From: Euzebya rosea
GTDB taxonomy: Bacteria > Actinomycetota > Nitriliruptoria > Euzebyales > Euzebyaceae
Assembly (NCBI RefSeq): GCF_003073135.1
Contig: NZ_PGDQ01000003.1
Coordinates: 372,001 to 436,000 of the forward strand
Length of the DNA: 64,000 bases
Direction of reading: 5' to 3'
In this document: in pieces, positions 44,975 through 62,129 of the stretch
How the letters are laid out: every line of letters begins with the position of its first letter
Numbering within the stretch: the first letter of the stretch is position 1
The notes under the pieces: model-generated
The model's database searches: none
Seen by the model: only the letters and a program-made list of their open reading frames with translations
Told to the model about the DNA's origin: nothing
Made by a program: the position numbers and the translations under genes

Positions 44975-45168
44975 GGGTGCAGCTCCTCCAGCGTTGGCTG
45001 ATCCGGGTGATCGAGGCCGCTGACGGTATCGCGGCGTCGCCCCGCGCACCCGGCTGTTCGGCTGATCGGGCGTGGATCGTGCCGCCGTCGACGACGTCGC
45101 TGTGCCAGACTCGGGCCGCGCACGAGTCGCGGCCGAATCAGCGGTCGGGTGCGCACAGGAGGCAACCG

Positions 45169-45549
45169 ATGCACAAGGACTTCGTTCTCATTCCCGATGA
45201 CCAACCGGGTGTGCTGGCCCGCCTCGGCGAAGCCTGTGGGGCGGCGGACATCAGCATCGAGGGCATCAGCGCGTTCACGGGGCAGGGCAAGGGGGTCGTG
45301 CACGTGCTCGTCCCGGACGCCGAGCACGCGCTCAGGGTCCTCCAGGACGCCGGTCTCGACGTGCGGGCCGCCCGTGACGTCGTCGTCGTCGACATCGCCG
45401 ACCGTCCCGGGGCGATGGGCGAGATCTGTCGCACGATCGCCGACGCCGGGATCAACATCGAGCAGGCCTACCTGGCCACCGGCGGGCGCATGGTGATGGT
45501 CGTCGACAAGGTCGTCGAGGCCCGCGAGCTGGTCGGCGGCACGGACTAG
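45169..45549 (+). CDS. Tandem ACT-domain protein
   Basis: A 126-residue protein made of two ACT-like halves. The first spans about residues 1-60 (FVLIPDDQPGVLARLGEACG, ISIEGISAFTG). The second spans about 65-126 (VVVVDIADRPGAMGEICRTI, AGINIEQAYLATGG). ACT domains bind amino acids and regulate metabolism. No catalytic domain is present, so it may be a free-standing sensor. AGGAGG 6 nt before ATG 45169 fixes the start. The NAD-glutamate dehydrogenase gene follows 91 nt downstream, so a regulatory link to amino-acid catabolism is plausible but unproved. Confidence 0.85.
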   Translation: MHKDFVLIPDDQPGVLARLGEACGAADISIEGISAFTGQGKGVVHVLVPDAEHALRVLQDAGLDVRAARDVVVVDIADRPGAMGEICRTIADAGINIEQAYLATGGRMVMVVDKVVEARELVGGTD

Positions 45550-45640
45550 CAGCACGGCAACACCCCGCGTCGCCAACGACGTCGACGCGGGCCACCGCAC
45601 ACCCTGCACGGCCGAGGTGGCGGCCACTTGGAGGATCGCT

Positions 45641-48600
45641 GTGTCCGACGGACTCGATCGCCTCTACGAACGTCTTCGCAACGCGCTGCCGGAGGACCGG
45701 GCCGACCATGCCGTCGAGCTCGCCAACGCGGCCTACCGCCGGCTCCCCGCCGCCGAACGGGCTGCGCTGGACCTCGACCGCGCCGAGTCGCTGATCCTCG
45801 ACGCCCTCGCGGCGTTCGAGGCCGGCGACGGCTCGTCGCCGCAGATCCGGCTGGAACCCGACGGGGCGACCACGATCGTGCACGTCCACGCCGTCGACGG
45901 CCCCTTCGTGGTGTCGACGGTCACCGAGGAGCTGCACCGGCTGGGGCTGGCGCCCATCGACCTGCTCCACCCCGTGGTCGGCGTCGCCCGTGACGGGGAC
46001 GGCAACCTCAAGTCGCTCGGGCCGGCGCGGACTGCGCCGCGACGCGAGACCTACCTGGCGATGGACCTTCACCAGGCGCTCAACGAGGCGTCCCGCGAGA
46101 CGGTCGCCCAGTACCTCCGGGACGTGCTCGACGACGCCCTGCACGCCATGCGGGACTTCCTGCCGATCAAGCAGCGCATCGCAGGCATCGCCATGGAGGT
46201 CGAGGTGACCGCCGGGTCGCGCTACGACGCCGCCGAGGTGACCGAGGTCGCCACGTTCCTGCGCTGGCTGCTCGACGACTACTTCGTCTTCCTCGGCTAC
46301 CGCGGCTACGACATCAACGGGAGTGGAGATGACGCGACCGCCGTCGTGACCCCCGGCAGCGGCCTGGGGATCCTCCACAGCGAGGAACGGTCCCGCTACG
46401 CCGAGCCCGTCCCGCTGTCGTCGCTGTCGGAAGCGCTCCTGCACCAGGCCACCGAGGGGCCCCTGCTGCGGATCAGCCGGACCAACCGGCTGTCGACGGT
46501 CCACCGGCAGGTCCGGATGATCGACGTGTCCATCCAGAAGGTCGACCCGTCGGGACGCCTCGTCGGGGAACACCGCATCCTCGGGTTGCTCGCCCAGAAG
46601 GCGTTCGTCGAACCCGCGTCGACCATCCCGGTGCTGCGTCGCAAGCTGCGCTTGGTCCTCGAGGCCGAGGACGTCGTCGACCACAGCCACGACGAACGCG
46701 CGCTGCGGACCCTGTTCGACGCCTTCCCCAAGCAGGAGCTGTTCGAGAGCGACGTCGACGAGCTGCGCCAGACGATGGTGAAGCTGCTGGAGGTCTCCCG
46801 CCGGCAGGAGGTCCGCCTGCTGGTCCGCCAGGAGCCCGTGCGGCGGTCGGTGTCGGCGCTGGTGACGGTGCCGCGGGACCGCTTCTCCGCCGAGCTGCGC
46901 AGCCAGGTGCAGGAGCTGCTCCAGGAGCGCTCGGGCGCCACGACCGTCGACTACCAGCTGTCGATGACCGAACGCGACCAGCCGCTGCTGCACTTCACGC
47001 TGCACCTGCCCGAGGGCGTCACGTCACCCCTCGACGTCGACGCGGTCGAGCAGGAGATCCAGCGGCTGACCCGGACGTTCTCCGACGCGCTCACCGAAGC
47101 GCTCGCCGGCCGTCGGGGGATGGCGGACGCCCGGATCGCCGCCGAGCAGTGGTGCAGGGTGCTGCCGGTGGCCTACACCGAGAGCACGGCGGTGGCCACC
47201 GCGGTCACCGACATCGAGGAGCTCGAGGCGCTCGACGGCCCCGACGCCGTCCGCATGCGCCTGATCCGGCCGCCGTCGCCCAACGGGACGTCGTCTCGCG
47301 AGCGACTGCTGCGGTTCCGCCTGTACAAGGCGGGCGAGGGCGTGGAGCTCTCCGGGTTCCTCCCGCTCCTGGAGTCCCTGGGCCTGATCGTGGTGGAGGA
47401 GCAGCCCTACCGGATGGACACCTCACCGGTCTGGGGTGCCCTGCAGATGCACGACTACGGGGTCCGGACCGAGGGGCTGCCCATCGACGTCCGGTCCGAC
47501 GGGCCACGCCTTGCCGATGCAGCGGTCGCCATGTGGGAGGGGCGCGCGTCCGTCGACTCGTTGAACCGGCTCGTGCTCGGGGCCGACATGTCCATCGAGC
47601 AGGTCACCGTGTTGCGTGCCTATCGCCGCTACCTGCGCCAGATCGGGACGACCTACACCGAGGCGACGACCAACGACGCCCTGATCGAGTACCCGGCCGT
47701 CGCCCGGGCCCTCATCGCCTACTTCGACGCCCGGTTCGACCCGGCGATCGAGGACGAGGAGGCGCGGCTGGTGGCCGCCGACTCGGCCCGCCACGACGTC
47801 CTCAGCGCGCTGGAGGCGGTCGAGCGGCTCGACCAGGACCGGATCCTCCGGTCGTTCCTCGGTGTCATGGACGCGACCCTGCGGACCAACCGCTGGCGTC
47901 GTCGTCCGTGGTTGTCGCTCAAGATCGACTCATCCCGGGTTCCCGGTGTGCCCAAGCCCGTGCCGTACCGCGAGATCTTCGTGTACTCCACGGAGATGGA
48001 GGGCGTGCACCTTCGCGGCGGCCCCGTCGCCCGCGGCGGGTTGCGCTGGTCCGACCGGCTGGACGACTTCCGCACCGAGGTGCTCGGCCTGATGAAGGCC
48101 CAGGTCACCAAGAACGCGGTGATCGTGCCGACGGGGTCCAAGGGCGGCTTCGTGCTGAAGCACCGGCCGGTGGACGGCGCGGAGCTGCGCGCGGAGGTCG
48201 AGGCGCAGTACCGCGTCTTCATCCGCGGCCTGCTCGACGTGACCGACAACATCGTCGACGGCGACGTCGTCCCGCCCGAGCACGTCGTCCGGGCCGACGG
48301 TGACGATCCCTACCTGGTCGTCGCGGCCGACCGTGGCACCGCCACGTTCTCCGACATCGCCAACGGCATCTCCGCGGAGTACGGCTTCTGGCTGGACGAT
48401 GCCTTCGCCTCCGGCGGGTCGCAGGGCTACGACCACAAGGCCATGGGCATCACGGCCCGAGGCGCGTGGGTCGCGGTGCAGCGACACTTCCGCGAGCTGT
48501 CCATCGACGTGCAGACCGACCCGATCACCGTCGTCGGGGTCGGGGACATGTCCGGTGACGTGTTCGGCAACGGCATGCTGCGGTCCCGCGCGATCCGACT

Positions 48601-50416
48601 GGTCGCGGCCTTCGACCACCGCGACATCTTCATCGACCCGACGCCCGACGAGGAGACGTCGTTCGAGGAGCGTCGCCGGTTGTTCGAGCTGCCCCGTTCG
48701 TCGTGGCAGGACTACGACCAGTCGTTGTTGTCCGCCGGTGGCGGCGTCTTCTCCAGGACCGTGAAGTCCGTGCGGCTGTCGCCGGAGGCCCGGGAGGCCC
48801 TGCGCATCGACGCCGAGGAGCTGTCACCGCCCGAGCTGATCAACGCCATCCTGAAGGCACCGGTGGACCTGCTGTGGTTCGGCGGCATCGGGACCTACGT
48901 CAAGTCGCGCGAGGAGAGCAACGGCGAGGTCGGGGACCGTGCCAACGACGCCGTCCGCGTCAACGCCGACCAGGTCGGCGCCCGCGTGGTCGGGGAGGGT
49001 GGCAACCTGGCCATGACCCAGCTGGGCCGCATCGGCTACGCCCGACGTGGTGGACGCTGCAACACCGACGCCACCGACAACGCTGCGGGCGTCAACACCT
49101 CCGACCGCGAGGTCAACCTCAAGATCCTGCTGTCGCTGGCCATCAACGCCGGTGAGCTGGAGCCGGACAACCGCAACGACCTGCTGGCTCGCCTGACCGA
49201 GGACGTCGCCGACCAGGTCCTCCGCGACCAGTACCTGCAGACGTGGGCGATCAGTCAGGAGATCGGCTCGGCGCCGGGCGGCATGGGCGCCTACGAGCAG
49301 ATGATGCAGTCGCTGGAGTCCCGCGGACGGCTCGACCGAGCGGTCGAGCTGCTGCCCGACACCGCCGAGGTCGAGGAGCGTCGCACGCAGGGGGCGGGGT
49401 TCACCCGTCCGGAGCTGGCGGTGCTGCTGGCCTACGCCAAGATCGACGTGACCGACCAGCTGCTGGCCGACGGCGTGGTCGACCAGCCGGCGTTCGAGCC
49501 GGTGCGGGCCAGCTACTTCCCGGGCGAGGCAGCGACACGGTTCGCCGACCTGGCACAGGAGCACCGGCTGCGTCGCGACCTGGTCGCCACCATCGTGGCC
49601 GGGGACCTCTGCAACCGGATGGGGATCACCTGGGCGACGCGCACGTCGACCGACCTCGGTGTGGACGTCTCCACCGTGGCGGGGGCCTACTGGATCGCCC
49701 GCGAGGTCATCGACGCCGACGCGTTGTGGCGAGAGGTGGAGGCGCAGGACGATCGGATCGACCCGACGCTGCAGCTGGAGCTGAAGGCGCAGGTCGACCA
49801 GCTGGTCGACGCGTTCGCCAGGTCGTTCGTGCGGCAGGGGAGGACCGGGGACATCGCCGGCGCCATCGCCGCCGACCGGCCGGCCTTCCTCGAGCTGTTC
49901 GACCTGGTCGGCACCACCCGCGCCAGCGAGCAGCACGTGGCCATCCAGCGGACGGCCACACGGTGGGTGGACCTCGGCATCGACGACGACCTGGCCGACC
50001 GGCTGGCCCGACTGTCGGCGCTGACCCTGGTGCCGGGGGTGGCGGCGACGGCCCGCACGACCGACCGCCGCCTGACCGACATCGGGGTGGTGTACCAGCT
50101 GGTGGCCGAACGGCTGCCGCTGGAGCAGATGACCCGCAGCCTGAAGGCCTACGAGCCGCACGGTCGCTGGGAACGCTGGCAGCACCGCGGGCTGGTCGAC
50201 GACGTTCGCCGCCTGCACCACGCCGCCGCCCGCGAGGCGCTGGCCATGGCGGACCTCGAGACCGAACCGGCCGAGGTCGTGGACGGGTTCCTGACCTCCC
50301 GCGCCGGCACGGTCGAACGTGCCGTGGGCCTGGCCCGCCAGGTTCAGGGCCAGCCCGAGGTCGACCTCGACGCCCTGGCCGTCGCCGTCCGAGCCCTCAG
50401 CGAGATCGCCGGATGA
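45641..50416 (+). CDS. gdh: NAD-specific glutamate dehydrogenase, large (180 kDa) type
   Basis: A giant enzyme of 1591 residues catalysing NAD-dependent oxidative deamination of glutamate to 2-oxoglutarate. It belongs to the L_180 class known from Streptomyces clavuligerus, Pseudomonas and mycobacteria. The N-terminal 700 residues comprise ACT-like regulatory domains. The catalytic core starts near residue 790: GGLRWSDRLDDFRTEVLGLM, KNAVIVPTGSKGGFVLK (active-site Lys near 829) and VVGVGDMSGDVFGNGML, with NAD-domain and helical C-terminal segments to the end. GTG 45641 has GGAGG 6 nt upstream; GTG at 45617 is a weaker alternative. Terminated by the hairpin at 50585. Confidence 0.95.
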   Translation: MSDGLDRLYERLRNALPEDRADHAVELANAAYRRLPAAERAALDLDRAESLILDALAAFEAGDGSSPQIRLEPDGATTIVHVHAVDGPFVVSTVTEELHRLGLAPIDLLHPVVGVARDGDGNLKSLGPARTAPRRETYLAMDLHQALNEASRETVAQYLRDVLDDALHAMRDFLPIKQRIAGIAMEVEVTAGSRYDAAEVTEVATFLRWLLDDYFVFLGYRGYDINGSGDDATAVVTPGSGLGILHSEERSRYAEPVPLSSLSEALLHQATEGPLLRISRTNRLSTVHRQVRMIDVSIQKVDPSGRLVGEHRILGLLAQKAFVEPASTIPVLRRKLRLVLEAEDVVDHSHDERALRTLFDAFPKQELFESDVDELRQTMVKLLEVSRRQEVRLLVRQEPVRRSVSALVTVPRDRFSAELRSQVQELLQERSGATTVDYQLSMTERDQPLLHFTLHLPEGVTSPLDVDAVEQEIQRLTRTFSDALTEALAGRRGMADARIAAEQWCRVLPVAYTESTAVATAVTDIEELEALDGPDAVRMRLIRPPSPNGTSSRERLLRFRLYKAGEGVELSGFLPLLESLGLIVVEEQPYRMDTSPVWGALQMHDYGVRTEGLPIDVRSDGPRLADAAVAMWEGRASVDSLNRLVLGADMSIEQVTVLRAYRRYLRQIGTTYTEATTNDALIEYPAVARALIAYFDARFDPAIEDEEARLVAADSARHDVLSALEAVERLDQDRILRSFLGVMDATLRTNRWRRRPWLSLKIDSSRVPGVPKPVPYREIFVYSTEMEGVHLRGGPVARGGLRWSDRLDDFRTEVLGLMKAQVTKNAVIVPTGSKGGFVLKHRPVDGAELRAEVEAQYRVFIRGLLDVTDNIVDGDVVPPEHVVRADGDDPYLVVAADRGTATFSDIANGISAEYGFWLDDAFASGGSQGYDHKAMGITARGAWVAVQRHFRELSIDVQTDPITVVGVGDMSGDVFGNGMLRSRAIRLVAAFDHRDIFIDPTPDEETSFEERRRLFELPRSSWQDYDQSLLSAGGGVFSRTVKSVRLSPEAREALRIDAEELSPPELINAILKAPVDLLWFGGIGTYVKSREESNGEVGDRANDAVRVNADQVGARVVGEGGNLAMTQLGRIGYARRGGRCNTDATDNAAGVNTSDREVNLKILLSLAINAGELEPDNRNDLLARLTEDVADQVLRDQYLQTWAISQEIGSAPGGMGAYEQMMQSLESRGRLDRAVELLPDTAEVEERRTQGAGFTRPELAVLLAYAKIDVTDQLLADGVVDQPAFEPVRASYFPGEAATRFADLAQEHRLRRDLVATIVAGDLCNRMGITWATRTSTDLGVDVSTVAGAYWIAREVIDADALWREVEAQDDRIDPTLQLELKAQVDQLVDAFARSFVRQGRTGDIAGAIAADRPAFLELFDLVGTTRASEQHVAIQRTATRWVDLGIDDDLADRLARLSALTLVPGVAATARTTDRRLTDIGVVYQLVAERLPLEQMTRSLKAYEPHGRWERWQHRGLVDDVRRLHHAAAREALAMADLETEPAEVVDGFLTSRAGTVERAVGLARQVQGQPEVDLDALAVAVRALSEIAG

Positions 50417-50781: not shown

Positions 50782-50814
50782 AGATCGGGGACCGCGTCAG
50801 CGGTCCTCGATCTG
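50781..50814 (-). terminator. Hairpin overlapping the gltA stop codon
   Basis: A fifteen-base-pair stem (50781-50795 with 50800-50814, one G-U pair). The four-base loop GTCA at 50796-50799 contains the gltA stop codon (50797-50799, minus strand). The ascending arm encodes the last residues of citrate synthase. Confidence 0.75.
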
Positions 50815-52083
50815 GACGTACTCGCGGGTGGCGGCGCCGGTGTAGATCTGCCGGGGGCGGCCGATGCGGGTGTCGGGGTCGCTCATCATTTCCTTCCACT
50901 GGGCGATCCAGCCCGGCAGGCGGCCGATGGCGAACATGACGGTGAACATCTCCACCGGCAGGCCCATGGCCCGGTAGATCAGGCCCGAGTAGAAGTCGAC
51001 GTTGGGGTACAGCTTCTTCTCGATGAAGTAGTCGTCGTTGAGGGCGACTTCCTCCAGCTCCTTGGCGATCTCGAACAGCGGGTCGTTGGGCGCCAGCTTC
51101 TGCAGGACCTTGTCCGCGGTCTCCTTGATGATGGTGGCCCGCGGGTCGAAGTTCTTGTAGACGCGGTGCCCGAAGCCCATCAGGCGGAACGGGTCGTTCT
51201 TGTCCTTGGCCCGGTTGACGAACGAGGCGGTGTCACCGTCGGCGTCGCGGATCTCCGCCAGCATCTCCAGGACGGCCTGGTTGGCGCCGCCGTGCAGCGG
51301 GCCCCACAGCGCGTTGATGCCCGACGCGATGGCGGCGAACATGTTCACCTGCGTCGAGCCGACCAGGCGCACGGCCGTGGTGGAGGCGTTCTGCTCGTGG
51401 TCGGCGTGCAGGATGTACAGCAGGTCCAGCGCCTTGGCGATCTCGGGGTCGACCTCGTAGGGCTCGGCCTTCACGCCGAACATCATGTGGAGGAAGTTCG
51501 CCGGGTAGCTCAGCTTGTTCCACGGGTAGATGAACGCCTGCCCGATGGACTTCTTGTACGACCACGCCGCGATCGTCGGCATCTTGGCCATGAGGCGGTA
51601 GATCGACACCTCGACGTCCCGCTCGTCCTTGGGGTCGTAGTGGTCCTGGTAGAACGTCGACAGGCCAGCCGTGGCCGCGGAGAGGATCGCCATCGGGTGC
51701 GCGCTCTTGGGGAACGCGTCGAAGAACTGGCGCATGTCCTCGTGGAGCAGCGTGTGGATGGTGATCTGCTGCTCGAAGTAGTCCAGCTCCGACTGGGTGG
51801 GCAGCTCGCCGAAGATCAGCAGGTAGGAGACCTCCAGGAAGTTGGAGGACTGCGCAAGCTGCTCGATCGGGTAGCCGCGGTAGCGCAGGATGCCCGCCTC
51901 ACCGTTGAGGTAGGTGATGTCGCTTCGGCACGAGGAGGTGGAGGCGAAGCCGGGGTCGTAGGTGGTCAGCCCGGTGGCCCCACGCAGGCCGGAGGAGTGG
52001 ATGCCGCGATCACCTTCGGTTCCCTGGACCACCGGTGCTTCGAAGTGATCGCCTTCCAGCTCGATGCGTGCGTGGTCAGTCAT
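50797..52083 (-). CDS. gltA: Citrate synthase
   Basis: Condenses acetyl-CoA and oxaloacetate at the entry of the TCA cycle, 428 residues, type II hexameric-like form. The N-terminus (LRGATGLTTYDPGFASTSSC, ITYLNGEAGILRYRGYPIEQ) is typical. Active-site residues are His in LHADHEQNAST, His in GPLHGGANQ and GFGHRVYKNFDPRA, and the catalytic Asp in NVDFYSGLIYRAMG. Its last codons form one arm of a hairpin. The start ATG 52083 diverges from the GH13 gene. Confidence 0.96.
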   Translation of the reverse strand: MTDHARIELEGDHFEAPVVQGTEGDRGIHSSGLRGATGLTTYDPGFASTSSCRSDITYLNGEAGILRYRGYPIEQLAQSSNFLEVSYLLIFGELPTQSELDYFEQQITIHTLLHEDMRQFFDAFPKSAHPMAILSAATAGLSTFYQDHYDPKDERDVEVSIYRLMAKMPTIAAWSYKKSIGQAFIYPWNKLSYPANFLHMMFGVKAEPYEVDPEIAKALDLLYILHADHEQNASTTAVRLVGSTQVNMFAAIASGINALWGPLHGGANQAVLEMLAEIRDADGDTASFVNRAKDKNDPFRLMGFGHRVYKNFDPRATIIKETADKVLQKLAPNDPLFEIAKELEEVALNDDYFIEKKLYPNVDFYSGLIYRAMGLPVEMFTVMFAIGRLPGWIAQWKEMMSDPDTRIGRPRQIYTGAATREYVQIEDR

Positions 52084-52179: not shown

Positions 52180-53910
52180 GTGCAGCCGAGGCTGGGTCCG
52201 CGGACCGATCGGTGGCAGGCTGTGGAAGTGCTCGACTCCGCCCTGCGCACACACCTTTCCGCCCTGTATCCGCCCGATGTCGCAGAGGTGACGCTGCCAC
52301 GCCTGATGGCGCTCGCCGAACGCCATCGGCGCCCCCGGGAGGTCCGTCCGCTGGACCAGCACGACGTGTGGCTGATCGCCTACGCCGACCATGTCGGCGA
52401 CGGCCGCCGACCACCGCTGCAGGTCATGGACGAGCTGCTGTCGGGACCGCTGGCCGACGTCGTCAACGGCGTCCACCTGCTGCCGTTCTACCCGTGGACG
52501 TCCGACGACGGCTTCGCGGTCGTGGACTTCCGGGCGGTCGATCCCGCGGTCGGGGACTGGGACGACGTCGTCGCGGTCGGGCGTGGACGACGCCTGATGG
52601 TCGACGCCGTCGTCAACCACATGTCGGCGTCCTCCACCCATGTGCGCGACTGGACAGGACACGTCCTGAGCCCGCACGAGTCGTTCGACACCTCCGAGGT
52701 CGTCCGCCCCCGCACCAGCCCGCTGCTGACGCCATTCGAGGCACCGAACGGGCTGGTGCGCCACGCGTGGACCACGTTCTCGCCCGACCAGGTGGACCTC
52801 GACTACGGCAACCCCGACGTGCTCGTGGACATGACCGACGTCCTGCTCGGCTACGTCGAGCGCGGCGCGTCGGTCATCCGCCTCGACGCCGTCGCCTTCC
52901 TGTGGAAGGAGAGCGGCACCCCCTGCATCCACCTGCCGCAGACCCACGAGGTCATCCGGCTGTGGCGGACCATGCTGGACTGGTGTGCCCCCGGCAGCAT
53001 GCTGATCACCGAGACGAACGTCCCCCACGAGGAGAACATCAGCTACTTCGGTGACGGCAGCGACGAAGCACATCTCGTCTACCAGTTCGCACTCGCACCC
53101 CTGGTCCTCGCCTCGTTCATGTGGGGCAACGCCCAGGACCTGACCCGCTGGGCCGCATCGCTGGAGCCACCGCCCGGCCAGGGGACGTTCTTCAACTTCC
53201 TCGCCTCCCACGACGGCATCGGGCTCCGACCCGCCGAGGGGCTGGTGTCGTCCACCCAGGTCGACGGGCTGTGCGCGCTGGCTCGCGCCGCCGGGGGAGG
53301 GGTGTCCTACCGCTCCGGCCCGAACGGGCGCCAGCTGCCCTACGAGCTGAACACGACGGTCCTCGACGCCCTCGACGCGGTGGCCGACGACGGGGGCACG
53401 ATCCAGCGGATCGTCGCCGCCCATGCGATCCTCCTCGCCCTCCAGGGCGTCCCCGGGATGTGGGCCGGTTCACTCCTCGGGGTGCGCAACTGGACCGACG
53501 GCGTCCAGCAGACCGGCCGGCTGCGGACGGTCAACCGACGTCGGCTGCTGCTCGACGAGCTGATGGCCGACCTGCAGCGCGACGGGTCCTTCGTGTCGGC
53601 GGTCTTCCACGGCCTGGCCGAGCTCGTGGCCCTGCGCACCAGCAGCCCCGCGTTCGACCCGCACAGCCCCCAGCGGGTGCTGGCCGGACCGTCGTGGCTG
53701 TTCGGGGTCCAGCGGGGTGAGGGACCGGACCGGCACGTGGTGCTGGTCAGCGTTTCGGACCGTGACAGGGCCGTTCGGCTGGGTGACCTCGGGGTCGGGG
53801 GTCGGTGGCGCGACCGCTTGGGCTCGCCCGGGACGACGCCCTACGGTCCCGACGACGTCCTCGTGCTGCCCCCGTGGGGCGTGGCCTGGCTGGCCCTGGA
53901 CGAGGACTGA
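52180..53910 (+). CDS. GH13_18 sugar phosphorylase (candidate glucosylglycerate phosphorylase)
   Basis: A 576-residue alpha-amylase-superfamily enzyme resembling sucrose phosphorylase. The catalytic elements are DAVVNHMSASS, the nucleophile Asp in VIRLDAVAFLWKE (about 236), the acid/base Glu in ITETNVPHEENISYF (about 278) and the transition-state Asp in FLASHDGIGLRP (about 345). Hydrolysing amylases lack the NHMSASS/WKESGTPC features. GH13_18 includes phosphorylases of sucrose, glucosylglycerate and others. The convergent gpgS gene favours glucosylglycerate as substrate (inference). The start is uncertain: GTG at 52180, or GTG at 52222 or 52228, which would remove 14-16 residues. Confidence 0.82.
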   Translation: MQPRLGPRTDRWQAVEVLDSALRTHLSALYPPDVAEVTLPRLMALAERHRRPREVRPLDQHDVWLIAYADHVGDGRRPPLQVMDELLSGPLADVVNGVHLLPFYPWTSDDGFAVVDFRAVDPAVGDWDDVVAVGRGRRLMVDAVVNHMSASSTHVRDWTGHVLSPHESFDTSEVVRPRTSPLLTPFEAPNGLVRHAWTTFSPDQVDLDYGNPDVLVDMTDVLLGYVERGASVIRLDAVAFLWKESGTPCIHLPQTHEVIRLWRTMLDWCAPGSMLITETNVPHEENISYFGDGSDEAHLVYQFALAPLVLASFMWGNAQDLTRWAASLEPPPGQGTFFNFLASHDGIGLRPAEGLVSSTQVDGLCALARAAGGGVSYRSGPNGRQLPYELNTTVLDALDAVADDGGTIQRIVAAHAILLALQGVPGMWAGSLLGVRNWTDGVQQTGRLRTVNRRRLLLDELMADLQRDGSFVSAVFHGLAELVALRTSSPAFDPHSPQRVLAGPSWLFGVQRGEGPDRHVVLVSVSDRDRAVRLGDLGVGGRWRDRLGSPGTTPYGPDDVLVLPPWGVAWLALDED

Positions 53911-53934
53911 CCCCTGTCCGGTGGAGCGGGATCC

Positions 53935-54894
53935 TCAGCGGCGGGAGCCCATCGGCGGCCGCTCGACGATGGCGATCGACTGTGCCTCCGACATCCCGAC
54001 GGTGCCGTCGTCGCCGCGGACGAACTGGCGGTAGGCCGTGGGCAGGTCGCCGAGCTGGGCCCGGTCGGCGTCGGGAAGGCGTCGAAGCGCCGCCTGGGCA
54101 ACGCCGAACGCCATGCGGCTGAGCGCCTCGAGGGACTGGTTGCGGTGGATGCGCTGCTGCACGTCGACCTGCGCGATCGCGCCGGCACCCCGCAGGCGCA
54201 ACGTGTCGATCAGCATGCCGACCTCCACGCCGTAGCCGGTCAGGAACGGGATCGACTCCAGCAGGGTGCGCCGGCCGGCGTACTCCCCGGACAGGGGCTG
54301 GACGAGCCCGGCGAGCTCCGGCCAGAACAGGTTGAGCAACGGCCGGGCCAGCAATTCGGTGACGCGTCCGCCGCCGGAGGCGTGCATGACCCCGTCGAGC
54401 TCCACCGGCCGGTCGTAGAAGGCCTTGACCAGCTCGACGTCGGGGTCGGTCAGCAGCGGGCCGAGCAAGCCGGAGACGAACCGCGGGTCGGGGTTGCGGA
54501 TGTCGGTGTCGATGAAGGCGACGATGTCACCGCTGGTGACCGCGAGGCTGCGCCACAGCGCGTCGCCCTTGCCCAGCCCGGGACCGAGGTCGGGGAAGAC
54601 CCCTATGTCGGTGTGCACCCGTGCGCCGTGGTCGGCCGCGACGCGCTGGGTGTCGTCGCTGGACCCCCCGTCGAGCACGACGATCTCGTCGACCAGCTCG
54701 CCGGCCAGCGACATGACCGAGTCGATCACCCCCCCGACCGTGGCCGACTCGTTGCGGGTCGGCAGGACCACGCTGACCGTCACGTCCTGCTCCGCCTTGC
54801 GGGCGGCGAGGTCGGTGGGGTCGAACTGTCCTGCGGTGAAGGTCCGCTCGGCGAACCAGGTCTCGATGTCGAAGGGGGTGGGGGAGGGCTGCAC
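53935..54894 (-). CDS. gpgS: Glucosyl-3-phosphoglycerate synthase
   Basis: Transfers glucose from a nucleotide sugar to 3-phosphoglycerate, the first step of glucosylglycerate and of methylglucose lipopolysaccharide in mycobacteria. The GT81 pattern is VSVVLPTRNESATVGGVID, EIVVLDGGSSDDTQRVA, GKGDALWRSL, the metal-binding DTD of VAFIDTDIRNPDP, SGEYAGRRTLLESIPF and GYGVEVGMLIDTLR. GTG 54894 gives 319 residues, close to mycobacterial GpgS (324). Any earlier start would extend into the intergenic stretch after the cupredoxin gene. It lies 53 nt after the oxidase-cluster cupredoxin gene and faces the GH13_18 gene. Confidence 0.9.
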   Translation of the reverse strand: MQPSPTPFDIETWFAERTFTAGQFDPTDLAARKAEQDVTVSVVLPTRNESATVGGVIDSVMSLAGELVDEIVVLDGGSSDDTQRVAADHGARVHTDIGVFPDLGPGLGKGDALWRSLAVTSGDIVAFIDTDIRNPDPRFVSGLLGPLLTDPDVELVKAFYDRPVELDGVMHASGGGRVTELLARPLLNLFWPELAGLVQPLSGEYAGRRTLLESIPFLTGYGVEVGMLIDTLRLRGAGAIAQVDVQQRIHRNQSLEALSRMAFGVAQAALRRLPDADRAQLGDLPTAYRQFVRGDDGTVGMSEAQSIAIVERPPMGSRR

Positions 54895-54947: not shown

Positions 54948-55577
54948 TCAGGAGAGGGTGATCTCGCCCTCCATCCCGGCGGCACGGTGGCCGGGGATGC
55001 TGCAGTAGTAGGTGTAGGTGCCGGCGTCCAGGCCGAAGGGCGCGACGTCGGCGCCGCCGGCCGAGGCCACGACGGGCTGATCGTTGTTGAGGCCCTCGAA
55101 GACGACGTTGTGCTCGAGCGAGCCAGCATTGTCGATGGCGATGATGTTCTCGCCGGCCGTGCCCTCCGACGGGGCGGAGGTGTAGGCCAGGCCGTTGTCG
55201 GCCCCCCAGACGAGCGCGCCCTCGGGGATGGCGACGGCGCCTTCCTCGGCGACCTCCCCACCCTCCTCTGCGTGCTCCTCGTGGTGCACGTCGCGGATGC
55301 CGACGGAACCGGCCACGATGCCGGCGCCGACGATGCCGGCGATGCCGAGCACCATGCCGACGCCCAGGGCGCGGGAGGAGATGTCGGGGTTGCGCTCGAC
55401 GACGAACGCGGTCGCCATCACGTAGCCGGCCGCAAGGACGGCCACCAGGACGCTGACCTCGGTTTCGACGGCCAGCAGCACCCTGGACAGCGATCCGGAG
55501 AACAGCAGGACGGCGCCGAGGAGGGTGAGGGGCATGACGAGCGGCACGAACACGCGCCGACGGGTGGTCTGGTTCAT
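54948..55577 (-). CDS. Membrane-anchored cupredoxin of the oxidase cluster
   Basis: A 209-residue protein. Three to four hydrophobic segments cover about residues 10-95, including VPLVMPLTLLGAVLLFSGSL. A His/Glu-rich stretch (HHEEHAEEGGEVAEEG) follows, then a C-terminal cupredoxin domain with His in LEHNVVFEGL and Cys, His and Met in YYCSIPGHRAAGM. Type I copper binding is expected. Its ATG overlaps the ctaG stop by four bases. It could be an electron donor to the caa3 oxidase or a copper carrier in its assembly. Confidence 0.83.
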   Translation of the reverse strand: MNQTTRRRVFVPLVMPLTLLGAVLLFSGSLSRVLLAVETEVSVLVAVLAAGYVMATAFVVERNPDISSRALGVGMVLGIAGIVGAGIVAGSVGIRDVHHEEHAEEGGEVAEEGAVAIPEGALVWGADNGLAYTSAPSEGTAGENIIAIDNAGSLEHNVVFEGLNNDQPVVASAGGADVAPFGLDAGTYTYYCSIPGHRAAGMEGEITLS

Positions 55578-56452
55578 CGCTTGACGAGCTCCGGTGTCTG
55601 GTCGGTGCCGGCGAAGTCCCGCCAGTACAGGGCGTCGGGACCGCCGGTTCGGTCCTCGTGGGACCAACGGAAGAACAGGGCGGCGATGACGGACCACAGG
55701 AGCAGCCCGCCACCGATCTTCATGAGCAACCCGGCGATCTGGAGGTCCACCAGGGGGGTGATGAACTCCCAGATGCGGGGTGCGTTCTCGTAGGAGGAGT
55801 ACAGGGGGGTGCTGGCGAACGTCAGGAACGACGCCGGCACGGTCGGCAGGATCGAGTGGCTGAACAGGTAGCCCATCCGACCGAGGTAGCTGTAGTGCGG
55901 TACCTCCGGCAGGGGCGACATGACCGGCCACCACATCAGCAGGCCGACGAACACCCACAGGAAGTGGGTGAACAGGTGGAACAGGCCGTTGGACAGCGTG
56001 GCCTCGACGAACTGCGGCGTGTGCGCCGTCGCGACGAACGCGTTGACCAGCAGCAGGGCGACGAGGGGCTTGGTGATGACCCTCGCGACCGGCAGCACCC
56101 CGGGGCGCACCAGCATGCGCCGCAGCATCCAGGCCGGACTGCCGAGGATCAGCAGGGGTGCCGCCACCAGCTGGAACATCAGGTGCTGCACCATGTGGAA
56201 GCTGTACAGGTAGTTCTCGCCGACGTTGTGGATCGGGGAGCTGGCCCCGATCCCGAAGACGAGGACACCGGTGAAGTACAGGACCTTCTGCTGCCGGGTC
56301 GCCCAGCCCGATCGTGCCAGGTGCTTGGGCGCCGAGGTCGGCCCCCAGGCGCTGAGCAGGTACAGGTACCCACCCCCGAGCAACAGCATCAGCAGCCACG
56401 CGTCGGGGGACGCCTGGGGTCGCAGGGCGATGCTCGGGTCGATGGTGGGCAC
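55574..56452 (-). CDS. ctaG: Cytochrome c oxidase assembly factor CtaG
   Basis: A seven-helix membrane protein of 292 residues (caa3-type CtaG family) needed for copper delivery to the oxidase. Helices are visible throughout (LLMLLLGGGYLYLLSAWG, LVALLLVNAFVATAHTP, HFLWVFVGLLMWWPVM). His residues include SFHMVQHLMFQ and LFHLFTHFLW. It follows ctaF by 27 nt and is coupled to the cupredoxin gene. Confidence 0.9.
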   Translation of the reverse strand: MPTIDPSIALRPQASPDAWLLMLLLGGGYLYLLSAWGPTSAPKHLARSGWATRQQKVLYFTGVLVFGIGASSPIHNVGENYLYSFHMVQHLMFQLVAAPLLILGSPAWMLRRMLVRPGVLPVARVITKPLVALLLVNAFVATAHTPQFVEATLSNGLFHLFTHFLWVFVGLLMWWPVMSPLPEVPHYSYLGRMGYLFSHSILPTVPASFLTFASTPLYSSYENAPRIWEFITPLVDLQIAGLLMKIGGGLLLWSVIAALFFRWSHEDRTGGPDALYWRDFAGTDQTPELVKR

Positions 56453-56479: not shown

Positions 56480-56797
56480 CTAGAAGCCCGGGCCGGTGGC
56501 GGCCAGGAACCAGTCGGCAGCGACGACGGTGAAGACCGCCGCGGCCAGGGCGATGCCCGCGATGAACATGCGTCGCAGGACCTTGTTGTCGAAGCGGAGG
56601 TGCATGAACCACGCGCCGACGAGGACGAACTTGCCGATCGTCAGGATGATCAGGGCAGGCGTCGTGACCTGGCGCCCGAGCTGCTCGCGGAAGACGTACA
56701 GCAGCACCTCGAGGGTGGTCATGACCGCCAGGATCCCGGCGATCTCGAGGTAGGTCGAGCGGGACGGGTGGTCGTGGTGCTCTTCGTTCTCAGCCAT
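56480..56797 (-). CDS. ctaF: Cytochrome c oxidase subunit IV (CtaF, caa3 type)
   Basis: A 105-residue small membrane subunit with three transmembrane helices (about 18-38, 46-66 and 76-98), preceded by a His/Glu-rich N-terminus (MAENEEHHDHPS). The motifs FVLVGAWFMHLRFDNKV and AGIALAAAVF are typical of prokaryotic COX4. It stabilises the oxidase core. Confidence 0.88.
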   Translation of the reverse strand: MAENEEHHDHPSRSTYLEIAGILAVMTTLEVLLYVFREQLGRQVTTPALIILTIGKFVLVGAWFMHLRFDNKVLRRMFIAGIALAAAVFTVVAADWFLAATGPGF

Positions 56798-56812: not shown

Positions 56813-57421
56813 CTACCCGACAGGGATCAGGTAGATGACGGTGAAGATGACGATCCAGACGATGTCCACGAAGTGCCAGTACAGGCCGACCAGCTCGACG
56901 GTCTCGGACTTCTCCGGACCGAACTTGCCGCCCAGCGACAGCGCCCAGAGGGCCAGCAGCATGAGCACGCCGATGGTGACGTGGATGCCGTGGAAGCCGG
57001 TGAGGACGAAGAAGGACGAGGAGAACGGGCTGGTCTCCAGCTTGAAGCCCTCCTCGACGAAGATCGTGAACTCGTAGATCTGCCCGGCGAGGAAGATGGC
57101 GCCGAGCAACGCCGTGGTCAGCGTCCAGACCCGGAAGCTGCGCAGGTTGTTGCGCTGCAGGGCGTCCAGCGCCAGGACCATGCCCAGCGAGCTCATCAGC
57201 AGGATGAACGTCGACGCCGAGGTGAACGGGATGTCGAAGATGTCCAGCGCGGTCGGACCGTCGTTGGTCCGGTTCAGGTACAGCAGGTACGTGGCGATCA
57301 GCGCGCCGAAGAACAGGCACTCGGACCCGATGAAGGTCCACATGCCCAGCTTCTCGTTGCTGATCCCCAGGCTGGTCGGCGGGTGGTGTCCCGCGTCGGC
57401 GTGGGCGGTGTCAGCGGCCAT
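56813..57421 (-). CDS. ctaE: Cytochrome c oxidase subunit III
   Basis: A 202-residue five-helix subunit of the heme-copper oxidase. Family blocks are KLGMWTFIGSECLFFGALIA, QIYEFTIFVEEG, FVLTGFHGIHVTIGVLML and GLYWHFVDIVWIVIF. The ATG shares its A with the ctaD stop (TGATG), so it is translationally coupled. It has no metal centre; it guides proton uptake and oxygen access. Confidence 0.94.
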   Translation of the reverse strand: MAADTAHADAGHHPPTSLGISNEKLGMWTFIGSECLFFGALIATYLLYLNRTNDGPTALDIFDIPFTSASTFILLMSSLGMVLALDALQRNNLRSFRVWTLTTALLGAIFLAGQIYEFTIFVEEGFKLETSPFSSSFFVLTGFHGIHVTIGVLMLLALWALSLGGKFGPEKSETVELVGLYWHFVDIVWIVIFTVIYLIPVG

Positions 57422-59367
57422 CAGTGGTCTCCCTCTGCGCTGGGCTCCAGGGCCCAGCCGATCATCGAGCCGAAGGTGATGATCCCACCGACCGCCAGCA
57501 GGGCGATCATGGTGGCACCTTCGTAGAACACGCCGTACGCGGCGATGGGCAGGCCGATCGACAGGGTCAGCGGGAACCAGGAGGGATCGGGCATGTGGAT
57601 GCCGAGCTCCTTGGCGGTCTTGCCGCTGACGCGGTCGCCGTAGGGACCACCGGGGTTGTCGGTGGACCCGCCGGCCGGCACGCGGACCGGCTCGGCGTCG
57701 GGGGCCTGGGTGTACTTGCGGTACCACAGCTCGTCGCGGTCGGAGATCGTCGGGATCTCGTCGAAGTTGTGGACGGGCGGCGGCGAGGAGGTCAGCCACT
57801 CCACGGAGCGGGCGTCCCACGGGTCGGCGCCAGCAGCGGGGTTCTTGCGGGACACGAAGACGTTGACCACGAACACGATGAAGGACACCGCGATGATCAG
57901 CGCGCCGACACCGACGATGGCGTTCCAGAAGTTCCAGCCCATGCCGTCGGCGTAGGTGTAGTAGCGCCGCGGCATGCCGTTGAGGCCGAGGAGGTGCATC
58001 GGGGCGAACGTCAGGTTGAAGCCGATCAGCATCAACGCGAAGTGCAGCTTGCCGAGCTTCTCGTTCAGCAGGTGGCCGAACATCTTGGGGAACCAGAAGT
58101 AGATGCCACCGAACAGGCCGAACAGCGCACCACCGAAGAGCACGTAGTGGAAGTGCGCCACGATGTAGTAGGTGTCGTGCTGCTGGGTGTCGTGGGGGAC
58201 CAGGGAGTGGGTGACGCCCGAGAGGCCACCGATGGTGAACATCGACACCAGGCCGATGGAGAACAGCATCGGGGTGGTGAAGCGGATCTGCCCGCCCCAC
58301 ATCGTGCCCAGCCAGTTGAAGATCTTGATGCCGGTGGGGACCGCGATGAACATCGTCGCGATGCCGAAGGAGGCGTCGGCGACGGGGCCCAGGCCCGCGG
58401 TGAACATGTGGTGGGCCCACACGCCCCAGCCCATGAAGCCGATGGCGATACCCGAGAAGACGATCGCGGAGTACCCGAAGAGGGGCTTGCGGCTGAAGAC
58501 CGGCAGGATCTCGGAGATGATGCCGAAGGCCGGGAGGATCATGATGTAGACCTCCGGATGGCCGAACAGCCAGAACATGTGCTGCCAGAGGACCGGGTCG
58601 CCGCCGTTGGTGGGGTCGTAGAACGGTGCGGCGAAGCGGACCTGGAACATCAGCTGCCACAGGGCGATGCCGATGACCGGCATGGCGAACAGCAGCAGGA
58701 AGGCCACCACGAAGGTCATCCAGGTGAAGACCGGCATGCGCATGAGGGTCATGCCCGGCGCGCGCATGTTGAGGACCGTGGTGATGAAGTTGACCGCGGA
58801 GGCCAGCGAGGCGACACCGGCGATCTGCAGGCCCAGGGAGTAGAAGAGCATCCGCGACTGGTGCACGGCGGCGGCTTCGGAGAGGGTCAGCGACGCCGGG
58901 TCGGGACCGATCTGGCCGGCCAGCGGTGAGTAGTTCACCCACGACCCGTTGGGCAGGCCGTCGAAGAGCACCGCGGAGTACAGGAAGACACCCGCGGCCA
59001 GCCACACCCACAGGGAGAGGGCGTTGATGCGGGGGAACGCGACGTCACGAGCACCGAGCTGCAGCGGCAGCAGGTAGTTCATGAAGGCCGCGCCCAGCGG
59101 CATGACGACGAAGAACACCATCGTCAGGCCGTGCATGGTGAAGATCTGGTTGTAGGCGTCGGCCGACAGGATCTCGCCGTTGGGGCCGGCAAGCTGGGCG
59201 CGGATGAGCAGCGCCTCGAGGCCGCCGACGACGAAGAAGAACAGCGCGGCGACGCCGTACATGATGCCGATGCGCTTGTGGTCGACGGTGGTCAACCACG
59301 ACACGATGCCGGTCGTCTTGGTGGGGCGAGGGAAGATCCCTCGGCGGGTGGTTGCGATGGCACTCAC
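57421..59367 (-). CDS. ctaD: Cytochrome c oxidase subunit I
   Basis: The catalytic subunit, 648 residues, with twelve core helices plus extensions. Ligands of heme a are His in FTMHGLTMVFF and in HYVLFGGALFG. CuB and cross-linked tyrosine lie in FWLFGHPEVYIMILPAFG, and further His in HDTYYIVAHFHY. The K and D proton paths appear conserved. The long C-terminal extension after about residue 560 (FDEIPTISDRDELWYRK and on) is seen in actinobacterial enzymes. It starts 4 nt after ctaC. Confidence 0.97.
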   Translation of the reverse strand: MSAIATTRRGIFPRPTKTTGIVSWLTTVDHKRIGIMYGVAALFFFVVGGLEALLIRAQLAGPNGEILSADAYNQIFTMHGLTMVFFVVMPLGAAFMNYLLPLQLGARDVAFPRINALSLWVWLAAGVFLYSAVLFDGLPNGSWVNYSPLAGQIGPDPASLTLSEAAAVHQSRMLFYSLGLQIAGVASLASAVNFITTVLNMRAPGMTLMRMPVFTWMTFVVAFLLLFAMPVIGIALWQLMFQVRFAAPFYDPTNGGDPVLWQHMFWLFGHPEVYIMILPAFGIISEILPVFSRKPLFGYSAIVFSGIAIGFMGWGVWAHHMFTAGLGPVADASFGIATMFIAVPTGIKIFNWLGTMWGGQIRFTTPMLFSIGLVSMFTIGGLSGVTHSLVPHDTQQHDTYYIVAHFHYVLFGGALFGLFGGIYFWFPKMFGHLLNEKLGKLHFALMLIGFNLTFAPMHLLGLNGMPRRYYTYADGMGWNFWNAIVGVGALIIAVSFIVFVVNVFVSRKNPAAGADPWDARSVEWLTSSPPPVHNFDEIPTISDRDELWYRKYTQAPDAEPVRVPAGGSTDNPGGPYGDRVSGKTAKELGIHMPDPSWFPLTLSIGLPIAAYGVFYEGATMIALLAVGGIITFGSMIGWALEPSAEGDH

Positions 59368-59371
59368 TGGG

Positions 59372-60589
59372 TTACTCCAGGGTTCCGAGGTAGGCGATCA
59401 CGGCGTCGATCTGCTCATCGGTCAGGGCGTCGCCACCGCTGCCGAAGCCGGGCATCTGTGCGCCGGGCTTCAGCGACTGGGGGTCGCGGATCCACTGCTC
59501 CATGCGCTCCATGGCCAGCTCGGGGTCCTCGACCTCGTCGCCGAACGGCGAGTCGAAGATGTAGCCGGCGAAGGCCTCGCGTGCGGCGAAGTGGGTCAGG
59601 TTGGGCCCGAAGCGGGAGTCGGCGTTGCCCTCCAGCCCGGTGAACGTGTGGCACCCGATGCAGACGCTGCCGGCGATCTCCGCACCCTGGGCGACGAGCT
59701 CGTCCTCGGGTTCGGCGACGGGCTGCTGCATCCGGTCGACCCAGGCCTCGTAGTCGGCTTCCTCGTGGGCGATCACGGTGAAGCGCATGTTGGCGTGCGA
59801 CAGGCCGCAGAACTCCGCGCACAGGCCGGGGTAGACACCCGGCTCGTCGGCTTCGATCCGCAGCTGGCGCTGGCCGCCCGGCACGTAGTCACGCTTGCCG
59901 GCGAGGCTCGGCACCCAGAAGGAGTGGATGACGTCGGCACCGTCGGCGGTGCCGTCGAGCTCGATGAAGACCTCGCGGCCGACCGGGATGTGCAGCTCGG
60001 AGGCGGTGTAGAAGTCCTCCTCGGTGTACTGGAACTCCCACCAGTACTGCTTGCCGACCGCGGTCACGAGGACCGCGTCCTCGGCGGGCGGTTCGGCCAG
60101 CTCGAAGATCTTCTGCACCGTCGGCACGGCGATCACGGCGAGGATGACGGCCGGGATCAGCGTCCAGGCGATCTCCAGCCGGGTGTTGCCGTGCACCTGC
60201 TTGGGCAGCTCGGTCTGTCCCTTGTCGCGGAAGCGGACGACGATGAACGCCAGGCCACCGAAGACCAGCAGGAAGACCGCGATCGTGATGGGGTAGGCGA
60301 TGTCCCACAGCTCGTCCTGCGATCGCGCCACCGGACCCAGGGGGTTCAGGGCGTCGGCCGGCAGCGGACGGTTGGGGTTGGGACCGGGGATCTGGGCAGT
60401 GTCGGAGCCATCCAGGTCCACCGAGCAGCCCGTGGCCAGCATCGCCAGGCCGCCCAGCGCGAGGTACGCACGCCGATGCAGGCGTGGCAGGGATTCGCGA
60501 AGACGGTCAGTGGTGCTGGTCACCCGGCCGCTGGCCCCGGGCGGGGCGGCGGTGGTGGTGGTTGGGGCGTCTGCGGGTCGGCGACCCAT
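59372..60589 (-). CDS. ctaC: Cytochrome c oxidase subunit II with C-terminal cytochrome c (caa3)
   Basis: A 405-residue lipoprotein-type subunit. The ATG at 60589 has GGAGG 4 nt upstream. A twin-arginine-like LHRRAYLALGGLAMLATGCS ends in a lipobox Cys (about 55). Two transmembrane helices follow, then the CuA domain with CAEFCGLSHANM plus the His in DVIHSFWVPSL. The C-terminal heme c domain has CIGCHTF and the axial Met in PGAQMPGFG. The fused cytochrome makes it a caa3 oxidase that can accept electrons from a small cytochrome or cupredoxin. The operon is ctaC-D-E-F-G. Confidence 0.96.
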   Translation of the reverse strand: MGRRPADAPTTTTAAPPGASGRVTSTTDRLRESLPRLHRRAYLALGGLAMLATGCSVDLDGSDTAQIPGPNPNRPLPADALNPLGPVARSQDELWDIAYPITIAVFLLVFGGLAFIVVRFRDKGQTELPKQVHGNTRLEIAWTLIPAVILAVIAVPTVQKIFELAEPPAEDAVLVTAVGKQYWWEFQYTEEDFYTASELHIPVGREVFIELDGTADGADVIHSFWVPSLAGKRDYVPGGQRQLRIEADEPGVYPGLCAEFCGLSHANMRFTVIAHEEADYEAWVDRMQQPVAEPEDELVAQGAEIAGSVCIGCHTFTGLEGNADSRFGPNLTHFAAREAFAGYIFDSPFGDEVEDPELAMERMEQWIRDPQSLKPGAQMPGFGSGGDALTDEQIDAVIAYLGTLE

Positions 60590-60860
60590 GCATCCTCCAT
60601 GGTTCTGGTGGCCCGGTGTGGGCCCGAGCTCGTGAGGGGGAATCCTGCCAGCTCATCGAAGTCCGGCATCGACTACCGGCGTGCGGGGTGCGCACCGTGT
60701 CGTGAATGGCGGGCCCGTAACACGCTGCCGTGTGGGCAGCTGGGGCCCTGCTGACGTTCAGGGCCGCCGATTGTGACATATCCGATGCGCGGGAGCCCAA
60801 CGGCACGACCGCGGGGTGCGCAGAGGATGCAGAAGCCCGCCGATCGTGGCGTCTGCCCGC

Positions 60861-62129
60861 ATGATGGAGACCGTGAACTCCGGTGTCGACGCGGCGCTCG
60901 GGCGCGTGGCCGTGGTCCTGCGCCTGATCGGCGCGGTCTGGATCGTGCTGCTGGTCGCGACGACCTGGGCGGCCGGCCAGCTGGTCGCCCCGGTGGCCTC
61001 CTGGGCGGTGACGGCCTTCGCGGTCGCCTGGGCCGTCCTGGCGTGGCGCACCGGCCTGATCGAGCGGGGGTCGGCCGCTGGGTCGTTCGCCGCATGGGTC
61101 GACGTGGCCGTGACCGTGGTCGTGATCCTCGGGCCCGGGTTCTTCGGTGAGACGACGGGGTTCGCCGGCGGGTACCCGTTCGCGTCGCTGGTCGTCGCGC
61201 TGGCGGTTGCCGACCGGACCGGCGTCGGCGTCGCCGCGGCGGTCCTCAGCGCGGCGACGTTGCTGAACCTCTTCTCGGTGGGCACGCCCTCCCTGCCGTC
61301 GGCGACCTCCAACGTCCTGTTCTACGGGTTGGGCGCGTCGGCGCTGTGGCTGGGCGTGCAGGTCCTGCGCCGGCAGGAGGAACGGACCCGGCTGGCGGAG
61401 TCCGAGCTCGCCGTCGCGCGCGAGCGGGCCACGACGGCCACCCACCTGCACGACTCGGTGCTGCAGACCCTCGCCCTGGTCCAGCGACGCGCCGACGACG
61501 CAGGCGCCGTCCGCTCGCTGGCCCGCCGCCAGGAACGCGAGCTCCGCGAATGGCTGTTCCCGCCGGAGACCGGCCCGGTGGTCGTCGCGGCGTCGTCATC
61601 GGGGCCGTCAACGGGGTCGTCATTGGGGTCGTCCGCGCCCCGGTCGGCGCGATCGGGGCCTGCGTCGGCGGGGGACGATGATGGGCACGATCCCGACGTC
61701 CCGAAGCCCCTCGGCCGCCTCGGCCCGACCCTCGAGGCCCACGCCGAGGACATGGAGGAGCGCTACGGCGTCTCCGTCCGGGTGGTCAGCGTCGGCGGCG
61801 CGGCCGACCTGCCCGTCCCACCGGTCGACGAGGGCGTCGGGGCGCTGGCCCGTGCCGCCAGGGAAGCCATGGCCAACGCGGCCGTGCATGCCGGCGTGGA
61901 CACCGTCGACGTGTTCGCCGAGCGGGACGGGGCGACCGTGGCCGTGTGGATCCGGGACCGGGGGATCGGCTTCGACCCCGACGACCTGCCGGCGGACCGA
62001 CACGGGGTCACCGGGTCGATCCGTGGCCGGATGCACCGAGCCGGCGGATCGGCGACCATCAGCAGCGGGCCGAGCCGCGGCACGGAGGTGGCACTCCGGA
62101 TCGCCGTCGACGGACAGGAGCAGCCATGA
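60861..62129 (+). CDS. Sensor histidine kinase (HisKA_3 / NarX-type)
   Basis: A 422-residue membrane sensor with about five or six hydrophobic segments in residues 10-150 and no separate extracellular domain. The phosphorylation box is ATHLHDSVLQTLALVQRRAD, with His 197. The N-box is REAMANAAVHAG and the G1 box IRDRGIGFDPDDLP. An unusual linker of about 55 residues rich in Ser/Gly/Pro then Asp (GSSLGSSAPRSARSGPASAG and on) separates the dimerisation and ATPase domains. The start is ambiguous between ATG 60861 and ATG 60864; neither has a good Shine-Dalgarno. It is divergent from the oxidase operon and coupled to its regulator. Confidence 0.88.
   Translation: MMETVNSGVDAALGRVAVVLRLIGAVWIVLLVATTWAAGQLVAPVASWAVTAFAVAWAVLAWRTGLIERGSAAGSFAAWVDVAVTVVVILGPGFFGETTGFAGGYPFASLVVALAVADRTGVGVAAAVLSAATLLNLFSVGTPSLPSATSNVLFYGLGASALWLGVQVLRRQEERTRLAESELAVARERATTATHLHDSVLQTLALVQRRADDAGAVRSLARRQERELREWLFPPETGPVVVAASSSGPSTGSSLGSSAPRSARSGPASAGDDDGHDPDVPKPLGRLGPTLEAHAEDMEERYGVSVRVVSVGGAADLPVPPVDEGVGALARAAREAMANAAVHAGVDTVDVFAERDGATVAVWIRDRGIGFDPDDLPADRHGVTGSIRGRMHRAGGSATISSGPSRGTEVALRIAVDGQEQP

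Follow-up and report, generated by a model that had tools for sequence, protein, structure and literature searches.

Two convergent genes in a 64,000-nucleotide stretch of the Euzebya rosea genome (contig NZ_PGDQ01000003.1, positions 372,001 to 436,000; hereafter the window) very probably form a turnover pair for glucosylglycerate (GG), in which a glucosyl-3-phosphoglycerate synthase (GpgS) would serve synthesis and a GG phosphorylase (GGaP) phosphorolysis. An initial annotation of this DNA had pointed to a GpgS gene facing a gene for a phosphorylase-type enzyme of subfamily GH13_18, and had proposed a possible cycle of GG synthesis and recycling. Both open reading frames (ORFs) are present, with matches to PRK13915 and GH13_18, respectively, and their place and convergent orientation are confirmed. 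The proposed cycle gains support, at the level of sequence, from the grouping of the phosphorylase with E. coli YcjM, from GGaP signature residues and from conserved gene adjacency. The two stop codons are separated by 24 bp (53911-53934), and no terminator-like pattern was found in this gap. The GTG assigned as translational start of the phosphorylase gene aligns with an ATG in an 87% identical relative (genome G022).

The plus-strand gene most likely encodes an enzyme of the GGaP kind. Pfam shows just a GH13 catalytic domain in its product (Alpha-amylase, 59.5 bits versus a cut-off of 22), a match beyond chance, and the PDB matches are GH13_18 phosphorylases, down to E 6e-41. The protein is identical to E. 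coli YcjM, annotated in RefSeq as GG phosphorylase, at 222 of 535 positions (41%), and E. coli is listed as one origin of characterised GGaPs (PMC11009771; PMC7178133; these papers and PMC2581804 are cited throughout from excerpts). Two features set GGaP apart from sucrose phosphorylase (SP), the motif (T/S)ETN at strand 5 and, in loop A, a Glu; in the M. silvanus GGaP Asn275 and Glu383 matter for activity, their substitution being harmful (PMC7178133). In the window protein, the alignment places T277, E278, T279 and N280 at strand 5, and E389, within RQLPYELN, opposite the Gln of SNLDLYQVN. Residues D236, E278 and D345, which we take to be the catalytic residues of a retaining GH13 enzyme, align with the corresponding SP positions. 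The spacing between N280 and E389 is 109 residues, compared to 108 between N275 and E383 of the M. silvanus enzyme (PMC7178133).

These signatures were followed through a sample of 66 genomes of the class Nitriliruptoria, 30 of which (G000-G029) belong to the window's order, Euzebyales, and through 80 named loci with GGaP relatives, which also come from Chloroflexota, Bacillota, Deinococcota, Spirochaetota and Pseudomonadota. TETN and the loop-A Glu are shared, without exception, by the 21 GGaP-type sequences from the class and the 34 named relatives that were aligned, but occur in none of the 13 sucrose or glucosylglycerol phosphorylases (GGoP) in the same alignment. A regular-expression count detected both in 73 of the 80 named loci; three of the exceptions (L164, L167, L189) are correct in the alignment, the expression having matched elsewhere, and the remaining four are L154, L160, L169 and L171. 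A quick maximum-likelihood tree was built from 65 sequences. A single branch of it, with a support of 100 in the SH-like approximate likelihood ratio test (SH-aLRT), splits 52 GGaP-type sequences including YcjM, the sole characterised GGaP in the set, from 13 SP and GGoP sequences. The tree took 34 named relatives out of 80, which had been found by means of patterns taken from GGaP, and its references outside the GGaP type are SP and GGoP, with no sucrose-6-phosphate phosphorylase (SPP). Compared to the known GGaPs (EC 2.4.1.352; M. silvanus, S. thermophila and E. coli YcjM), the window enzyme is alike in the TETN motif, the loop-A Glu, the catalytic Asp/Glu/Asp, the clade and the GpgS neighbourhood; it differs from YcjM in its modest identity and in belonging to an actinobacterial order.

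The product of the minus-strand gene scored 389 bits against the NCBIfam equivalog PRK13915 (glucosyl-3-phosphoglycerate synthase; cut-off 262), again beyond chance, and PDB structures of GpgS/MpgS matched it at E 1e-71 to 1e-82. With the actinobacterial GpgS of M. tuberculosis and M. hassiacum (GT81) it shares PRK13915, a GGGRVTEL stretch, the DxD motif and the Leu-Ser, Tyr and Glu of the donor pocket. As a single sequence, however, it is closest to the solved Rubrobacter xylanophilus protein 3f1y (279 bits), followed by mycobacterial GpgS (243-259 bits), and 3f1y is called MpgS/GpgS (PMC2581804). Since the best PDB match is thus an MpgS/GpgS and not a mycobacterial GpgS, a mannosyl donor is possible, and the enzyme might mainly make mannosylglycerate, so that the pair would not be a closed cycle. 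The position of 3f1y beside two members of the order in a GpgS tree, on a long branch whose position is uncertain, points the same way. We nevertheless consider this unlikely. The GpgS equivalog cut-off is passed, and the donor pocket reads Leu-Ser-Gly-Glu-Tyr as in M. tuberculosis GpgS, in which Leu209/Ser210 have a donor-pocket role (PMC2581804), unlike the Leu-Ala-Gly-Glu-Phe of 3f1y; moreover, the neighbouring gene is of a glucosyl-specific phosphorylase type. On account of the PRK13915 score and the donor-pocket Leu-Ser we call the gene GpgS and treat mannosyl use as a minor rival. The two order members placed beside 3f1y, G010 (L060) and G021 (L057), lack GGaP, and the support there is 86-87; their placement near the Rubrobacter MpgS/GpgS could hint at a different product in these two genomes.

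More doubtful still is that GpgS feeds methylglucose lipopolysaccharide synthesis instead of a free GG pool. In mycobacteria, GpgS has a key role in that pathway (PMC2581804), but the gene adjoining GpgS in the window encodes a phosphorylase whose type uses up free GG.

It is very unlikely that the GH13 enzyme is a sucrose, sucrose-6-phosphate or glucosylglycerol phosphorylase with an unrelated GpgS neighbour, although sucrose and glucosylglycerol phosphorylases head its PDB matches and no molecule named GGaP is among the best 60 matches listed. The window protein reached 148.3 bits against TIGR03852 (sucrose phosphorylase), below the cut-off of 334.4, as did YcjM with 221 bits, whereas three class sequences from a second GH13_18 clade, that of the sucrose phosphorylases, passed it with 351-386 bits. 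In the alignment, neither the SP loop-A motif N(L/V)D(I/L/V)YQ nor the GGoP motif VGAIYQ is present in the window protein. The initial annotation had suggested this comparison of active-site loops with GG, sucrose and glucosylglycerol phosphorylases, and had named clustering with sucrose-specific enzymes as an outcome that would speak against its idea; instead, the protein groups with YcjM, outside the SP/GGoP clade of a tree in which SPP is not represented. As TIGR03852 score, loop-A motif and tree are all contrary to it, an identity as sucrose phosphorylase is rejected. Equally improbable is a bifunctional phosphorylase like the Xylanimonas enzyme, making GG from sucrose instead of breaking it down: phosphorolysis is reversible and an actinobacterial enzyme that acts on sucrose and makes GG has been reported (PMC11009771), but the window protein has the strict GGaP signatures, in a comparison set drawn without XpGP.

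In the cycle that we propose, GpgS would join glucose from a nucleotide donor to 3-phosphoglycerate, yielding glucosyl-3-phosphoglycerate; the donor of its mycobacterial relatives is UDP-glucose. The phosphate would then be removed by a phosphatase, probably encoded elsewhere, leaving GG, a small sugar-acid and anionic compatible solute that shields cells against stress. If the reaction runs in this direction in the cell, GGaP would use inorganic phosphate to cleave GG, releasing glucose 1-phosphate and D-glycerate. Glucose 1-phosphate could enter metabolism, or become a nucleotide sugar again at the cost of one nucleotide, while glycerate kinase would rephosphorylate glycerate for glycolysis. 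The net result would be an adjustable pool of osmolyte and carbon, whose drawdown conserves some of the energy spent on activating the sugar. The physiological trigger of GG turnover we can only infer.

Other parts of this route were sought in the genome. A glycerate kinase was found (PF02595, 341 bits, C4:195543-196514). The initial annotation had placed the phosphatase elsewhere, and the genome is in keeping with this: there is none beside the pair, and ten matches to the histidine-phosphatase family PF00300 lie at other places, each of them at most a candidate. No genome match to the HAD-type MPGP phosphatase exceeded its cut-off. Among the histidine phosphatases, C2:121624 matches MtGpgP at 46 bits but other phosphatases better, so that it could not be named GpgP, and the one on C17 shows no GpgP match. 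Mycobacteria recycle GG by the GG hydrolase GgH (GH63), which would consume the same solute by hydrolysis, in contrast to phosphorolysis. The family of this rival GG consumer is, we assume, PF22422, and no match to PF22422 was found in the genome. Given this, and provided that PF22422 is the family of GgH, GGaP could be the sole sink for GG in this genome.

The initial annotation had also proposed looking for conservation of the gpgS neighbourhood, and this was borne out within the order: 18 of its 30 genomes (18 of the 19 with both) carry the two genes side by side and convergent, with 20-705 bp between the matched coding ends. Besides these 19, four genomes have GpgS alone (G002, G010, G014, G021), none has GGaP alone and seven have neither, several of the latter being incomplete assemblies. 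The co-occurrence gives a Fisher p of 1.6e-4, uncorrected for kinship and genome incompleteness. In the class as a whole, 21 of 66 genomes gave a GGaP-type match at 46-100% identity and 51 gave one to GpgS (E <= 1e-15); some weak GpgS matches (37-38% identity) may be other glycosyltransferases. In a sample of 296 genomes of the phylum, GpgS was detected in 145 (E <= 1e-50) and GGaP in 12 (E <= 1e-70), ten of them from the window's order. In this Actinomycetota sample GGaP is nearly confined to the order while GpgS is common, and most GpgS bearers are without GGaP at the cut-offs used. Among the 80 named loci, the fetched flank of GGaP (up to 8 kb, often shortened by contig ends) contains a GpgS relative in 18 and a relative of glycerate kinase in 6; two of the 18, L114 and L161, are apparently contigs of G018 and G012, respectively, which belong to the order. 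In 14 of these 18 loci GpgS is on the same strand as GGaP, whereas the window pair is convergent; two of the four exceptions are from this order.

In the one order genome with both genes apart, G015, GGaP and GpgS lie on different contigs (L085, L095), and GpgS there adjoins citrate synthase. The GGaP of G015 groups with that of G047, a genome from another family (SH-aLRT 98), which may reflect transfer or contamination.

Apart from the PDB ranking of the synthase, several observations weigh against a dedicated turnover pair. GpgS occupies its place without an adjoining GGaP in five order genomes (G002, G010, G014, G021, G015), and GGaP is therefore dispensable there. In the other 36 class genomes, GGaP is found just in two, both of f5: G047, where the match is near a contig end, and G060, in neither case beside GpgS. 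Five of the ten PF00300 proteins were looked at further and none was identified as GpgP. Some carriers of GGaP genes are not believed to build up GG (PMC7178133). Finally, the pair is part of a larger block that is conserved as a whole (Table 1), and the adjacency may therefore be partly an inherited neighbourhood and not the result of selection on the pair. This whole-block synteny weakens adjacency alone as proof of a functional pair.

Table 1. Features of the GGaP-GpgS pair and of the surrounding block (positions within the window)
Feature	Position	Strand	Description	Basis
GGaP gene, GH13_18	52180..53910	+	576 aa, GTG start	41% identity to YcjM; TETN and loop-A Glu; YcjM-side clade; below TIGR03852 cut-off
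GpgS gene, GT81 type	53935..54894	-	319 aa, GTG start within longer open frame	PRK13915; PDB GpgS/MpgS
TETN motif marking GGaP	53008..53019	+	residues 277-280; E278 at acid/base position	motif definition from PMC7178133 (excerpt)
E389, loop-A Glu	53344..53346	+	replaces Gln of other GH13_18 clades	PMC7178133 (excerpt)
Gap between convergent stop codons	53911..53934	.	24 bp	no terminator-like pattern
Large NAD-glutamate dehydrogenase	45617..50416	+	1599 aa; left part of block	PF05088, 807.7 bits; synteny
Citrate synthase	50797..52083	-	divergent from GGaP	PF00285, 472.5 bits; synteny
Cupredoxin-domain protein	54948..55577	-	immediate upstream neighbour of GpgS, co-directional, 53 bp off	PF00127, 34 bits; synteny
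CtaG-type cytochrome oxidase assembly protein	55574..56452	-		PF09678, 158.9 bits
Cytochrome oxidase subunit IV	56480..56797	-		PF03626, 41.3 bits
Cytochrome oxidase subunit III	56813..57415	-		PF00510, 74.8 bits
Cytochrome oxidase subunit I	57421..59367	-		PF00115, 519.5 bits; synteny
Probable cytochrome oxidase subunit II	59372..60589	-	c-type heme motif; right block end	named by eye from sequence; synteny

The pair sits in an order-conserved block of about 15 kb. Beyond the genus, synteny in G003, G001, G011, G029 and G013 is mostly confined to about 45.5-60.6 kb of the window; genes outside the block are mostly not conserved, with patchy recurrence at 33.0-34.5, 40.8-45.5 and 61.7-62.8 kb. 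GpgS holds its block position also where GGaP is absent. In contrast to GpgS loci outside the order, the window GpgS ends a run of cytochrome oxidase genes. None of 24 loci outside the order, with flanks of about 1.5 kb or less, showed oxidase, citrate synthase or GGaP genes near GpgS, and no oxidase-gene neighbours were seen in the four longer GpgS loci (L096-L099) either. Consequently, a location of GpgS beside oxidase genes is rejected as a general trait. In G002, which lacks GGaP, ORFs resembling a polysaccharide deacetylase and a putative glycosidase, both named by eye, lie between citrate synthase and GpgS (L091:5081-7904).

The specificity of GGaP was deduced from its gene context, in which genes for glycerate kinase, GpgS or a phosphatase occur (PMC7178133; PMC11009771). 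As the adjacency of GGaP and GpgS genes is published (PMC7178133), the idea of the initial annotation is right, yet ideas of this kind have appeared before. Other bacteria have been reported to possess the same enzyme pairing, which makes the finding sound but for the most part ordinary; what is added here is the order-conserved block holding the pair and the near-confinement of GGaP to this order in Actinomycetota. The order-wide metabolic block is a moderately interesting lead. According to a 2020 review, the exact metabolic function of GGaP is not confirmed by experiment (PMC7178133), and the order offers a natural test of the role of GGaP in a GG producer, a question which that review calls open.

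Glutamate is a major cellular anion. The GG pair might be one working part of the conserved block, in which glutamate dehydrogenase would degrade glutamate, citrate synthase and the oxidase would handle carbon and electrons, and GpgS and GGaP would swap the lost anion for nitrogen-free GG and back; expression of GpgS with the oxidase genes would then link the pool of osmolyte with respiration and with the nitrogen state of the cell. We hold this coupling to be improbable; it draws on the observation that low-nitrogen media seem to favour GG (PMC11009771). The literature searches returned no paper joining glucosylglycerate, cytochrome c oxidase and glutamate dehydrogenase, none joining 'glucosylglycerate' with a Nitriliruptoria genus among the matches listed, and no description of a regulatory coupling of the GG pool with respiration or nitrogen. 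The link to glutamate dehydrogenase and oxidase nevertheless provides a testable idea of when the GG pool is used.

Two further observations concern the margins of the block. Beside the oxidase genes, in the region 60816-62770, two ORFs named by eye succeed one another, the first resembling a histidine kinase and the second a LuxR-type response regulator; G024 and G001 retain an ORF of this region. An ORF with two ACT-domain matches (44956-45546) immediately precedes the glutamate dehydrogenase gene; it recurs in G022, G024, G003, G013 and G023 and may encode a regulator.

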